Source: Streptomyces thermovulgaris
GTDB lineage: Bacteria; Actinomycetota; Actinomycetes; Streptomycetales; Streptomycetaceae
Direction: 5' to 3'
NCBI RefSeq assembly: GCF_002155915.1
Contig: NZ_MUME01000096.1
Location: forward strand, 1 to 37,662
Length of the DNA stretch: 37,662 nucleotides
This document shows positions 2,703 through 5,611 of this stretch, one piece after another. The notes below the pieces were generated by a model. The model was not told where the DNA came from. It did no database searches and worked only from the letters and a program-made list of their open reading frames with translations. Every line of letters begins with the position of its first letter. Positions within the stretch are counted from its first letter, which is position 1. The translations under genes were made by a program, and so were the position numbers.

Positions 2703-3767
2703 ATGAGCGCTGTGACCCCCGCAGGAGGCGACACCGCGGCGGGCCTTTCCTGGCCCGTCCTGCTGAACGGCCTGCTGGAGGGCCGGGACCTCACCGCCGA
2801 CGAGACCGCCTGGGCGATGGACCTGATCATGCGCGGGGAGGCGACCGACGCGCAGATCGCCGGCTTCGTGGTGGCCCTGCGGGCCAAGGGCGAGACGGTG
2901 GAGGAGATCACCGGCCTGGTCCGCGCGATGTACGAGCACGCGAACGTGATCGAGGTGCCGGGCGAGACCGTCGACATCGTCGGCACCGGCGGCGACGGCG
3001 CGAAGACGGTGAACATCTCCACGATGTCCTCGATCGTCGTGGCCGGAACGGGCGCCAGGGTCGTCAAGCACGGCAACCGGGCCGCCTCCTCCGCCTCCGG
3101 GGCCTCCGATGTGCTGGAGAAGCTCGGCGTCAACCTGGAGCTGCCCCCGCGGCGGGTGGCCGAGGTCGCCCAGGAGGCCGGCATCACCTTCTGTTTCGCC
3201 GTCAAGTTCCATCCGGCGCTGCGGCATGCCGGTGCCGCGCGCGGCCAGCTGGCCATCCGCACGGTGTTCAATGTGCTCGGCCCGCTGACCAACCCCGCCA
3301 AGGTACGGGCACAGGCCGTCGGCGTCGCGGACCCGCGCATGGCCCCGATCGTCGCCGGGGTCTTCGCCGAGCGCGGCAACTCCTCCCTGGTCTTCCGGGG
3401 CGACGACGGCCTCGACGAGCTCACCACGACCTCCACCTCCCGGGTGTGGATCGTCCGGGACGGCACGGTCACCGAGGAGCGCTTCGACCCGCGCGACGTC
3501 GGCATCGAGCCGGTGCCCGTGGACGCCCTGCGCGGCGGGGACGCCTCCTACAACGCCGAGGTCGCCCGGCGGGTGCTGGACGGCGAGAAGGGGCCCGTGC
3601 GGGACGCCGTCCTGCTGAACTCGGCGGCGGCGCTGGTGGCGATGCGGCCGGGCTCGGGCACGCTCACCGAGCAGATCCGGGAGGGCATGGAGCGCGCGGC
3701 GGAGTCGATCGACTCCGGGGCGGCCAGGCGCGCCCTGGAGCGCTGGGTGGCGGCCAGCAACGCGTGA
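2703..3767 (+). CDS. trpD: Anthranilate phosphoribosyltransferase (TrpD)
   Basis: 354 aa. Transfers phosphoribosyl from PRPP to anthranilate, the second committed step of tryptophan synthesis. The PRPP-binding loop [21 protein letters not shown] and the anthranilate-side [21 protein letters not shown] are both intact, as is the [11 protein letters not shown] segment. The open frame extends upstream to 2574, but ATG 2703 is chosen because AGGAG (2691-2695) precedes it at good spacing and the family starts here; the extra upstream residues would run into the qcr terminator region. It stands apart from other trp genes; a separate anthranilate synthase is encoded at 27.4-29.3 kb. Confidence 0.95.
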
Positions 3768-3780
3768 CGGCACGGTGCGC

Positions 3781-3812
3781 GGTCCCGCGATCCGGACACG
3801 GGTTGCGGGACC
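3781..3812 (+). terminator. Putative terminator after trpD
   Basis: Arms GGTCCCGC (3781-3788) and GCGGGACC (3805-3812) form a perfect 8-bp stem with a 16-nt loop, 13 nt after the trpD stop. The 3' arm overlaps the proposed -35 of the next transcription unit (3803-3808), so terminator and promoter share bases. There is no T tract. Confidence 0.5.
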
Positions 3813-3832
3813 ACGGCCGGTTCACGTAATTT
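3803..3832 (+). promoter_or_regulatory. Candidate promoter of the SAM-IV leader
   Basis: TTGCGG (3803-3808), an 18-nt spacer and TAATTT (3827-3832). Transcription would begin near 3839, immediately before the first base of the SAM-IV aptamer, which supports the assignment. Inferred from sequence only. Confidence 0.5.
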
Positions 3833-3840
3833 CCCCTGCA

Positions 3841-3952
3841 GGTCATGAGTGACAGTCAAGTGGCCCCGGCCGACTGTCCGGCAACCCTCCGTCCGTGGCG
3901 GGGTGCCCCGGGTGAGGACCGGGCCGCAGACAGCAAGGTCTGCGGCAAGCGC
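3841..3952 (+). promoter_or_regulatory. SAM-IV riboswitch aptamer
   Basis: Contains the conserved elements of the actinomycete SAM-IV class: GGTCATGAGTGACAGTC, then GGCCCCGGCCGACTGTCCGG, GCAACCCTCC, GCGGGGTGCCCCGGGTGA and the terminal hairpin GCCGCAGACAGCAAGGTCTGCGGC (split here as CCGCAGAC, loop AGCAAG, GTCTGCGG). The first GACAGTC pairs with GACTGTC to make P1/P2. SAM-IV shares the SAM-I binding core but differs in peripheral helices and pseudoknot. Recognised by eye from remembered members of the class; a covariance-model search (Rfam SAM-IV) would settle it. It sits upstream of the short ORF at 4001 and the class V aminotransferase at 4271. Confidence 0.9.
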
Positions 3953-3994
3953 GGACCCCTCGTGTCCACCAGGGGTCCTGGTCGTACGAGGGAG
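3953..3994 (+). promoter_or_regulatory. Expression platform: two mutually exclusive stems over a ribosome binding site
   Basis: Stem A pairs GGACCCCT (3953-3960) with AGGGGTCC (3971-3978), 8 bp perfect. Stem B pairs CCCTCGT (3957-3963) with ACGAGGG (3986-3992), 7 bp perfect. They share 3957-3960, so only one can form. Stem B masks the GAGGGAG ribosome binding site (3988-3994) of the ORF at 4001; stem A leaves it free. The pairings are read directly; the link to SAM binding is inference. Confidence 0.65.
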
Positions 3995-4000
3995 TCTTCC

Positions 4001-4021
4001 GTGAGCAAGCGAATGCGTTAG
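4001..4021 (+). CDS. Six-residue leader ORF (MSKRMR) downstream of the SAM-IV aptamer
   Basis: GTG AGC AAG CGA ATG CGT TAG. A canonical Shine-Dalgarno GAGGGAG (3988-3994) ends six bases before the GTG, much better than most sites in this window. The peptide is short and basic and matches nothing I recognise as a functional protein. Its last codons (4012-4017) form the 5' arm of the hairpin at 4012-4046, so a ribosome translating to the stop would occupy that arm. It is probably a regulatory ORF whose translation, rather than its product, matters. No experimental evidence is available to me. Confidence 0.55.
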   Translation: MSKRMR

Positions 4022-4060
4022 GGCCGCAGAGCCCCGCCTCCGCATTTTCTCGTCTTTTTC
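4012..4060 (+). terminator. Putative intrinsic terminator overlapping the leader ORF
   Basis: Outer arms AATGCG (4012-4017) and CGCATT (4041-4046) enclose an inner GGGC (4021-4024)/GCCC (4031-4034) stem, and the hairpin runs straight into a T-rich stretch (ATTTTCTCGTCTTTTTC). T runs like this are exceptional in so G+C-rich a genome. The 5' arm lies in the last codons of the six-codon ORF. The stem has internal loops, so stability is moderate. Confidence 0.5.
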
Positions 4061-4140
4061 GTCCTTTTCCGTCTCTTCTTCGCTTTCTCTTCTCCTCCGG
4101 TCCGTCCTTTCCGGCCGCCTTCGTTCCGGCGTCCGGCCGG
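4045..4140 (+). other. 96-nt adenine-free, pyrimidine-rich leader segment
   Basis: From 4045 to 4140 there is not one A, and the first 60 or so bases are mostly C and T in TCTT/CTTT/TCCT clusters. The transcript would be C/U-rich and poorly structured at its start, the composition expected of a Rho loading site. It occupies much of the 249-nt gap between the leader ORF and the aminotransferase; the rest (4141-4270) holds only the RBS and no other gene that I can see. Confidence 0.5.
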
Positions 4141-4270
4141 ATGCCCGGTCCGGGACAGAGCCCGACGCGGAATCCGACGAGGAAGACGCCCACCTCATTT
4201 CCGTCCCCCCTCCGCGCCGAGCCGTGCCCGCTCGCGTGGTGATTCCGCCTGCCTCCACGGGAGTTCGCCC

Positions 4271-5611
4271 ATGTCCGTCTCCACCGTCGCCGCCGAGAAG
4301 TCCGTCTGCTCCCCGCTGCCCGTTCTGGGAACGGAGGTCACCGTCCCGCTCGTCACCGGCGGCGAGGTCGCCTACGCCGCGCTGGACTACGCCGCCAGCG
4401 CACCCGCCCTGAAGCGGGTCTGGGACGACGTGGCGGCGTACGTGCCGTACTACGGCAGCGTGCACCGCGGTGCGGGCCACCTCTCCCGGCTCTCCACCGA
4501 GCTGTTCGAGGACTCCCGCAGAACGGTCGCCGAGTTCCTCGACTGCCGCGGCGACGACGACGTGGTCTTCACCCGCTCCACCACCGACTCGCTGAACCTT
4601 CTGGCCCGTGCGCTCCCGGCCGGCTGCCAGGTGTTCGTCTTCGAGACCGAGCACCACGCCGCCCTCCTGCCCTGGCGGGGTGCGCGGGTCACCGTCCTCG
4701 ACGCCCCGCGCACCCCGCAGCAGGCCGTACGGACGCTGGAGTCGGCCCTGGCCGGCCGCGACCCCCACGGCCCGGCCCTGGTCTGCGTCACCGGTGCCTC
4801 CAACGTCACCGGCGAGCTGTGGCCCGTGAAGGAGCTGGCCGCCGCCGCGCACGCCCACGGCGCCCGCATCGTCCTGGACGCCGCCCAGCTCGCCCCGCAC
4901 CGCCCGGTGTCGGTCCGCGACCTCGACGTCGACTGGGTCGCCTTCTCGGGCCACAAGCTGTACGCCCCCTTCGGCGCGGGCGTGCTGGCCGGCCGCGCCG
5001 ACTGGCTGCGCGAGGCCGAGCCGTACCTGGCGGGCGGCGGCGCGAGCCGGGTGGTCGCACGGCGCGCCGACGGGGGAGTGGACGTCCAGTGGCACCACGG
5101 CGAGGCCCGTCACGAGGCCGGTTCCCCGAACGTCATCGGCGCCTACGCCATCGCCTCCGCCTGCAGAGCGCTGACCGAGGCCGGCTTCGACGCGCTGGTC
5201 GCCCGCGAGCAGCACCTGATCCGCACGGTCCGCGAGGGCCTCGCCGGGATCCCGGGAGTGAGGGTCCTGTCCCTCTTCGGCGACGACGCCCCCAGGGTCG
5301 GGGTGATCTCCTTCGTGGTCGCGGGCTGGAACAGCTCCCACCTCGCCGCCGCCCTCTCCGCCGAGTACGGCATCGGCGTGCGCGACGGCCTCTTCTGCGC
5401 ACACCCCCTGCTCCGCGTCCTGCTCGACGGCGCCGCACGGGCCCAGGACGGCTGCGGCACCGCGGACGCCGCCGTCCGTGTCAGCTTCGGCGCGGGAACG
5501 CCCGACGAGCACGTGGAGCGCTTCGTGCGGGCGGTGAGGGAGCTGGTGGAGAACGGCGCGAAGTGGCGCTACCGCACGGAGAACGGCCGCTGCGTCCCGG
5601 TGGCGCGGTGA
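4271..5611 (+). CDS. Class V aminotransferase, SufS/cysteine-desulfurase-like PLP enzyme
   Basis: 446 aa, fold-type I PLP enzyme. The PLP lysine is K229 in SGHKLYAPFGAG, the pyridine-binding aspartate is D203 in VLDAAQ, and TEHHAALLPW (126-135) gives the stacking histidine. HEAGSPNVIGA (281-291) matches the SufS FEAGTPN segment, and C376 in VRDGLFCAHPL aligns with the SufS catalytic cysteine, so sulfur-transfer chemistry is plausible. An upstream SAM-IV riboswitch also argues for a role in sulfur amino acid or SAM-linked metabolism. The start ATG 4271 has GGGAG upstream. No Suf scaffold genes are adjacent, so this is probably not the Fe-S assembly enzyme. The exact substrate is unknown. Confidence 0.85.
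   Translation: MSVSTVAAEKSVCSPLPVLGTEVTVPLVTGGEVAYAALDYAASAPALKRVWDDVAAYVPYYGSVHRGAGHLSRLSTELFEDSRRTVAEFLDCRGDDDVVFTRSTTDSLNLLARALPAGCQVFVFETEHHAALLPWRGARVTVLDAPRTPQQAVRTLESALAGRDPHGPALVCVTGASNVTGELWPVKELAAAAHAHGARIVLDAAQLAPHRPVSVRDLDVDWVAFSGHKLYAPFGAGVLAGRADWLREAEPYLAGGGASRVVARRADGGVDVQWHHGEARHEAGSPNVIGAYAIASACRALTEAGFDALVAREQHLIRTVREGLAGIPGVRVLSLFGDDAPRVGVISFVVAGWNSSHLAAALSAEYGIGVRDGLFCAHPLLRVLLDGAARAQDGCGTADAAVRVSFGAGTPDEHVERFVRAVRELVENGAKWRYRTENGRCVPVAR

Follow-up and report, generated by a model that had tools for sequence, protein, structure and literature searches.

A conserved six-codon reading frame behind the SAM-IV riboswitch of Streptomyces and its possible link to premature transcription termination

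Riboswitches that act through upstream reading frames

The closest described systems are known from Mtb. In the accessible portions of the two reports, the Mbox riboswitch uses a translational platform to control a conserved upstream open reading frame (uORF), rv1805A, with Rho-dependent premature termination before the pe20 operon (PMC12810186), and a B12 riboswitch relays to ppe2 through uPPE2, a uORF whose translation is needed (PMC11260477). The principle of a riboswitch-controlled uORF with premature termination is therefore already published for Mtb, with Rho dependence given for one of the two cases. The locus described here shares with Mbox the riboswitch, a predicted translational platform and the conserved uORF, which follows the aptamer immediately and has a Shine-Dalgarno sequence to itself (SD; uORF in 142/145 same-genus genomes, SD in 149/149 loci), and Rho-type premature termination is also proposed here. 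In contrast, Mbox is a Mg2+ aptamer with a different uORF, its principal 3' end precedes that uORF, and the available part of the report mentions no hairpin anchored at a stop codon (PMC12810186). With the B12 system the locus would share the relay from riboswitch to gene via a uORF; however, in the portion available that relay works by termination-reinitiation at an overlapping AUGA (PMC11260477), whereas here the two frames are 53-292 nt apart.

Two further kinds of regulator are related. Actinobacterial leader-peptide attenuators (NCBIfam NF042934; the Cys-rich Ms5788A and Ms4527A) also place a short leader ORF, often with hairpins, before a sulfur or amino-acid gene, but the Streptomyces-type uORF has no conserved codon run and its initiation would be under the control of an aptamer. 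As in other members of SAM-IV (Rfam RF00634), the locus combines a full-length aptamer match with a predicted masking of the ribosome-binding site (RBS), except that the RBS in question is that of the six-codon uORF and not that of the enzyme (142/145 same-genus genomes). In S. lividans, SAM-IV lies upstream of a cysteine desulfurase gene, and MSKRMR is not among the eight leader peptides listed in the accessible part of that study (PMC8079986). The original prediction had regarded a SAM-IV riboswitch acting through a tiny ORF as undescribed. The route from riboswitch via uORF is known from Mtb (PMC12810186, PMC11260477), and what survives of the claim concerns SAM-IV: the partly accessible literature searched on SAM-IV with uORFs, leader peptides and Actinobacteria, and more widely, contained no description of this arrangement, the 2008 SAM-IV and 2020 polycysteine papers falling outside its scope.

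The SAM-IV locus and its six-codon uORF

The window, i.e., the whole stretch of 37,662 nucleotides of Streptomyces thermovulgaris DNA analysed here, contains a single Rfam match, which is also the only SAM-IV found in this genome (Table 1). The covariance-model match covers the full length of RF00634 and its 112 bits far exceed the gathering score (38); by this measure the element at 3841-3957 is a SAM-IV riboswitch, as predicted originally, and thus a predicted SAM sensor. Its neighbours are trpD on one side and an aminotransferase class V gene on the other; qcrA and qcrB are found farther upstream. In profile searches the aminotransferase is SufS-like, yet it stays under the NCBIfam cut-offs; its start lies 249 nt behind the uORF stop. 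On the other side of the aptamer, the TTGCG stretch of the possible promoter reaches 90-95% conservation when the 149 loci are aligned, and a promoter scan gave no consensus site. We take the CGCGG strand at 3950-3954 to pair with the P3 loop of the aptamer in the pseudoknot.

Table 1 Features of the SAM-IV leader and its flanks (positions in the window; swap statistics in kcal/mol)
Feature	Position	Strand	Basis
Probable trpD terminator, inverted repeat GGTCCCGC...GCGGGACC 3' of trpD	3781..3812	+	Sequence; predicted function
Possible promoter, TTGCGG - 18 nt - TAATTT, directly 5' of the aptamer	3803..3832	+	Sequence; predicted function
SAM-IV aptamer	3841..3957	+	Rfam RF00634, 112 bits, model 1-116 of 116
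CGCGG at aptamer 3' end, putative pseudoknot strand; last two G overlap stem A	3950..3954	+	Sequence
Stem A, SD left free	3953-3960/3971-3978	+	Sequence; swap statistic -1.19 (139 loci)
Stem B, covers SD	3957-3963/3986-3992	+	Sequence; weak swap statistic, -0.37 (139 loci)
Shine-Dalgarno CGAGGGAG of the uORF	3987..3994	+	Sequence
uORF GTG AGC AAG CGA ATG CGT TAG (MSKRMR)	4001..4021	+	Comparison, 142/145 same-genus genomes
Outer stem AATGCG/CGCATT of the original prediction, particular to this genome	4012-4017/4041-4046	+	Comparison, 149 loci
Stop-codon hairpin GGGC-CGCAGA-GCCC, first pair uses third base of stop codon	4021..4034	+	Comparison, 127 distinct sequences
Pyrimidine-rich, G-poor tract, possible Rho loading region	4038..4127	+	A1 C37 G12 T40 in 90 nt
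Aminotransferase class V / cysteine-desulfurase-like PLP enzyme, own SD 4256-4263	4271..5611	+	PF00266, 256 bits

SAM-IV is present in 147 of 150 same-genus genomes. Pooled with secondary copies and the class-wide sample, these gave 165 same-genus loci, 157 of them distinct and 149 with the uORF. Since 28 of the 149 had been collected via the uORF pattern itself, a separate count was made with one primary SAM-IV locus per genome (145 genomes, i.e., the 147 without G055 and G096; secondary copies are under-sampled), and the uORF is found in 142 of the 145, in every case with CGAATG and TAG. Because the search required CGN-ATG, the RM dipeptide is partly given by construction; CGA within CGN, the TAG stop and the length of 21 nt were not required, and all three are invariant in the 149 distinct loci, with CGA as codon 4 and ATG as codon 5. 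The start codon is GTG in 140, ATG in 8 and TTG in 1; codon 6 is CGN in 141/149 (third base A83, C30, T24, G4); codons 2 and 3 vary, giving 36 distinct uORF sequences. An SD match of 4-6 nt precedes all 149, and inspection of the 8 loci that failed the search revealed no such uORF in any. A strict form of the pattern matches 101/150 same-genus genomes, once each (reversed control, 0), and 18/296 genomes or 1/114 genera of the class-wide sample; in named genomes it matches at least 119 stretches, and among the 80 matches listed nearly all are Streptomyces, with one Streptantibioticus and three other labels.

The ORF of the original prediction is thus conserved among same-genus genomes (142/145 genomes; CGA-ATG-NNN-TAG in 149/149 distinct loci), and on this comparison the uORF is more than a chance frame. 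It looks translated, because its start base varies, its last wobble position is largely free and its length is fixed. By simple ORF calling with a GC3 filter, CGA accounts for 3.7% of Arg codons under a strict gene filter (337 genes, 80 named contigs) and 7.2% under a loose one, and TAG for 64 of the 337 stops in genes from the 80 named contigs; the fixed CGA and TAG point to something beyond the peptide sequence. Pairing of CGAATG (4010-4015) with downstream sequence was considered as the cause of the invariance and set aside, since the outer stem gives no swap signal. Elsewhere in the S. thermovulgaris genome, each of two exact patterns for Cys/RM leader peptides had 0 matches.

Eight distinct same-genus loci lack the uORF. 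In three of them (L131, L171 and L180), a frame resembling the aminotransferase N-terminus begins at the riboswitch's own RBS. L131 and L180 have neither uORF nor spacer, and their nearest relatives in the set carry the uORF, so both elements seem to have been lost there; a uORF that is merely a remnant of the gene's own start is accordingly not favoured, in a check that covered L131 and L180. From the sequences, the uORF seems to replace the gene start with the same sign of control. Judging by L131 and L180, together with the aminotransferase genes that other genera seem to control directly, translation of the uORF likely favours expression. The five other loci (L185 and L187-L190) are secondary copies of SAM-IV; behind each comes a longer leader peptide of the VDLLRVNSALC type.

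Alternative stems, stop-codon hairpin and spacer

Stems A and B, the RBS and the MSKRMR frame all lie at the positions predicted for them. Across loci, comparison supports the competing stems by swap statistics (Table 1), which are obtained by exchange of arms between loci, scatter widely and ignore kinship; the signal of stem B is weak. Occupancy of the pseudoknot was mimicked, in thermodynamic terms only, by removing the two G common to stem A and the pseudoknot strand. Without them, the SD becomes harder to open by more than 0.5 kcal/mol in 126/139 loci (mean 2.45) and easier by more than 0.5 kcal/mol in 6/139. Masking of the RBS by the competing stems, as anticipated, is therefore favoured upon occupancy of the pseudoknot strand, as far as thermodynamics goes. 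The predicted lowest-energy fold of the present sequence covers the SD in both states, even without SAM; any switching would therefore need to be kinetic. In 10/149 loci (L015, L048, L134, L142, L160, L181-L184 and L186), the uORF follows the aptamer by only 12-14 nt and stems A and B have no room; masking there must be direct, if there is any.

Sequence comparison shows a small conserved hairpin at the end of the uORF (4021-4034), the first pair of which takes in the last base of the stop codon. With arms fitted for each sequence and kinship ignored, a stem of 4 bp or more forms in 121/127 distinct sequences and in 48% of shuffles; for 5 bp or more the figures are 86/127 and 17%. Six sequences lack even 4 bp. 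The overlap of a hairpin with the end of a short ORF, a trait of leader-peptide attenuators, is thus seen in the same 121 sequences. Some changes are compensatory, with A-U and C-G replacements (e.g., GAGGCC-AGC-GGCCUC in L405); the segment around the hairpin folds better than shuffles in 109 distinct sequences (mean z -1.28, versus -0.05 for a control segment), and the swap statistic is -1.04.

The stem named in the original prediction is a different one. The prediction had placed a terminator-like hairpin at 4012-4046, with its 5' arm in the last codons of the ORF and a T-rich run behind it, i.e., a classical intrinsic terminator. This genome does have AATGCG/CGCATT followed by TTCTCGTCTTTTT, and a 4-bp core, TGCG/CGCA, recurs in 83/149 loci, but the full 6-bp stem is found in 1/149, its swap statistic of -0.11 carries no signal, the segment 4008-4060 folds here about as well as its shuffles do (z -0.56) and a terminator scan of 3700-4400 found none. 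On the frequency of 1/149 and the missing swap signal, we rejected the outer hairpin as a conserved terminator. Behind the stop-codon hairpin, a U-tract (at least 5 T in 8 nt) occurs in 2/91 matched hairpins, so a classical intrinsic terminator is unlikely at this position as well, and with the empty scan we rejected it. As a conserved mechanism, the intrinsic terminator at 4012-4046 is already largely refuted, and we consider it very improbable as an explanation of the locus. What held of the prediction is a conserved hairpin at the end of the ORF, overlapping its stop; the proposed stem and the T-rich run as terminator are not supported.

The spacer between the uORF stop and the aminotransferase start (143/149 loci with the gene located) is 53-292 nt long, with a median of 106. 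Its sequence is unconserved, while its composition is conserved in comparison: C exceeds G in 142/142, pyrimidines make up 70% and the median C-G is 0.222. In 162 control gaps before other genes, pyrimidines make up 51% and C-G is 0.01, and 2.5% of the gaps reach 0.222. Thirty-seven of these gaps held the uORF motif; in the cleaned set of 125 without them, the median C-G is -0.021 and none reaches 0.222 (1/138, 0.7%, with a looser gene filter). Given this rut-like composition and the missing U-tract, Rho-dependent or U-less premature termination fits better than an intrinsic terminator, as judged from sequence. For S. clavuligerus, the accessible part of a 3'-end study reports a premature transcription unit ahead of CRV15_21540, which encodes an aminotransferase class V-fold enzyme. 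The unit carries a predicted SAM-IV and shows a drop in read ratio among the most extreme; hairpin 3' ends that lack a U-tract are treated there as a class (PMC8269248). The premature stop that had been proposed before the aminotransferase thus has a reported counterpart in another species (PMC8269248, in the portion available).

Two readings would account for parts of this anatomy by other routes. Ribosomes on the uORF could shield the leader mRNA from decay, the stop-codon hairpin acting as a 3' stabiliser of a short leader RNA and not as a terminator. The available text of the same S. clavuligerus report notes that stem-loops protect 3' ends and that processing may have produced some of the ends mapped (PMC8269248), and the missing U-tract agrees with such a role; however, stabilisation needs neither a conserved tract composition nor a hairpin whose first pair is at the stop codon, and we think it quite unlikely. 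Alternatively, the ribosome that ends at the uORF could scan, or be handed over, to the aminotransferase start, so that control would be translational throughout. The ppe2 case is a precedent (PMC11260477, as far as its text was available), and the G-poor spacer folds weakly, but the spacer of 53-292 nt (median 106) stands against the overlapping AUGA of ppe2, the aminotransferase start is preceded by a separate SD (4256-4263), and the premature transcript reported in the accessible part of the S. clavuligerus study would go unexplained (PMC8269248). Reinitiation of this kind is unlikely in our judgement.

Short frames in other genera and a model of coupling

In a family-level search, SAM-IV was found in 49/51 genomes. 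Among 23 loci of other genera in the family, 16 have the uORF or a near form (one codon shorter in L392 and L405), four (L399, L401, L406 and L407) have a longer reading frame directly behind the aptamer, the enzyme motif not being found at L407, and the remaining three (L410, L411 and L414) belong to neither type. Outside the family, the aminotransferase motif occurs at 31 of 105 distinct loci, and all 31 have an SD-backed in-frame start close behind the aptamer. A further 21 loci of other genera, chosen by eye, have a short ORF in the uORF position; 19 contain Cys codons, and the next gene is metY in all 17 where it was recognised. Nine of the 21 have CGAATG within 120 nt, as do 2/84 others (Fisher p 4e-6), and it is in frame as Arg-Met in all nine (L062, L064, L069, L074, L211, L226, L229, L238 and L254). 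Eight of the nine hold Cys codons, and metY is next in the seven where the gene was recognised; double control by SAM and cysteine is possible at these loci. A short ORF behind SAM-IV thus appears as a recurring arrangement, and the Streptomyces uORF looks like a Cys-Arg-Met form in which Cys has been replaced. Spacers of the other genera have more C than G in 12/12 measurable cases. The hairpin at the uORF stop gave a mixed result there and is not general, and we dropped it as a feature of other genera. Separately, some genomes carry SAM-IV pairs on opposite strands, oriented away from each other and ~120-220 nt apart, which may serve divergent operons (G464:C1:1096541-1096906, G454:C2:180862-181262, G474:C169:14065-14498, G438:C104:70479-70827 and G451:C17:380745-381161).

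The Cys-codon frames bear on whether the uORF is itself a sensor, i.e., a leader peptide responding to an amino acid (Met or slow CGA-AUG decoding in Streptomyces, Cys in relatives), with SAM-IV as only a second input. The invariant CGA-ATG (149/149) agrees with this, as do the Cys-codon uORFs at the same place in other genera, 9/21 of them with CGA-ATG, and two of three longer peptides behind SAM-IV, of the VDLLRV...ALC type, tested against NF042934 pass that leader-peptide model (L215 and L263, whereas L185, a same-genus secondary copy, fails); the model has a 20-residue limit, below which MSKRMR, with 6 aa, falls. However, no run of one codon, which an attenuator would be expected to have, is conserved in the 149 uORFs, a single Met is conserved besides the start, and codons 2 and 3 vary, which leaves amino-acid sensing as the primary input rather improbable. 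A combined form, in which both signals meet, seems to us a tentative possibility and may serve as a working idea: SAM would set uORF initiation, and the speed of the ribosome over a fixed codon pair would set its timely arrival at the stop, where it holds back the stop-codon hairpin. The pair would be Cys-CGA-AUG before metY in other genera and CGA-AUG alone in the Streptomyces family, the invariant CGA-AUG being a built-in ribosome timer.

The reading that we favour, with a probability of roughly 55%, is that SAM-IV with a translational platform gates the uORF, and that the uORF ribosome and the stop-codon hairpin decide readthrough into the aminotransferase gene. For it we infer uORF translation, the response to SAM, the direction of the effect and the kind of termination. 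As a plausible coupling mechanism, the switch would control the start of the six-codon uORF and not the start codon of the aminotransferase. At low SAM, a loose aptamer would let stem A form and leave the SD free; the ribosome would read xxRMR and halt on the TAG whose last base opens the first pair of the hairpin, and by terminating there would prevent the hairpin, so that RNA polymerase could continue into the aminotransferase gene. At high SAM, both closing G of stem A would be taken up by the bound aptamer, leaving stem B to cover the SD, and the uORF would fall silent; the stop-codon hairpin and the untranslated C-rich, G-poor RNA would then lead to premature termination, either Rho-dependent or U-less. 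A six-codon uORF cannot alone shield a tract that extends ~100 nt beyond it, and a purely Rho-based model therefore needs the hairpin or another link. We draw the link to termination from anatomy, composition and one 3'-end data set of another species, in its accessible part (PMC8269248), and on these grounds it probably holds. Counted against the favoured reading are the shortness of the hairpin, the 6/127 sequences in which it falls below 4 bp, its mixed occurrence in other genera, the missing U-tract, the 10/149 loci without room for the stems, the weak signal of stem B (-0.37) and a lowest-energy fold that covers the SD even in the SAM-free state.

If this coupling is true, a riboswitch class regarded as covering the start of an enzyme gene becomes a relay that would be able to act on transcription without a U-tract terminator, and the six-codon frame would be the link between riboswitch and transcription. 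It would make testable both a coupled translation that decides premature termination in Streptomyces and, across Actinobacteria, the combination of aptamers and leader peptides as two-input gates.
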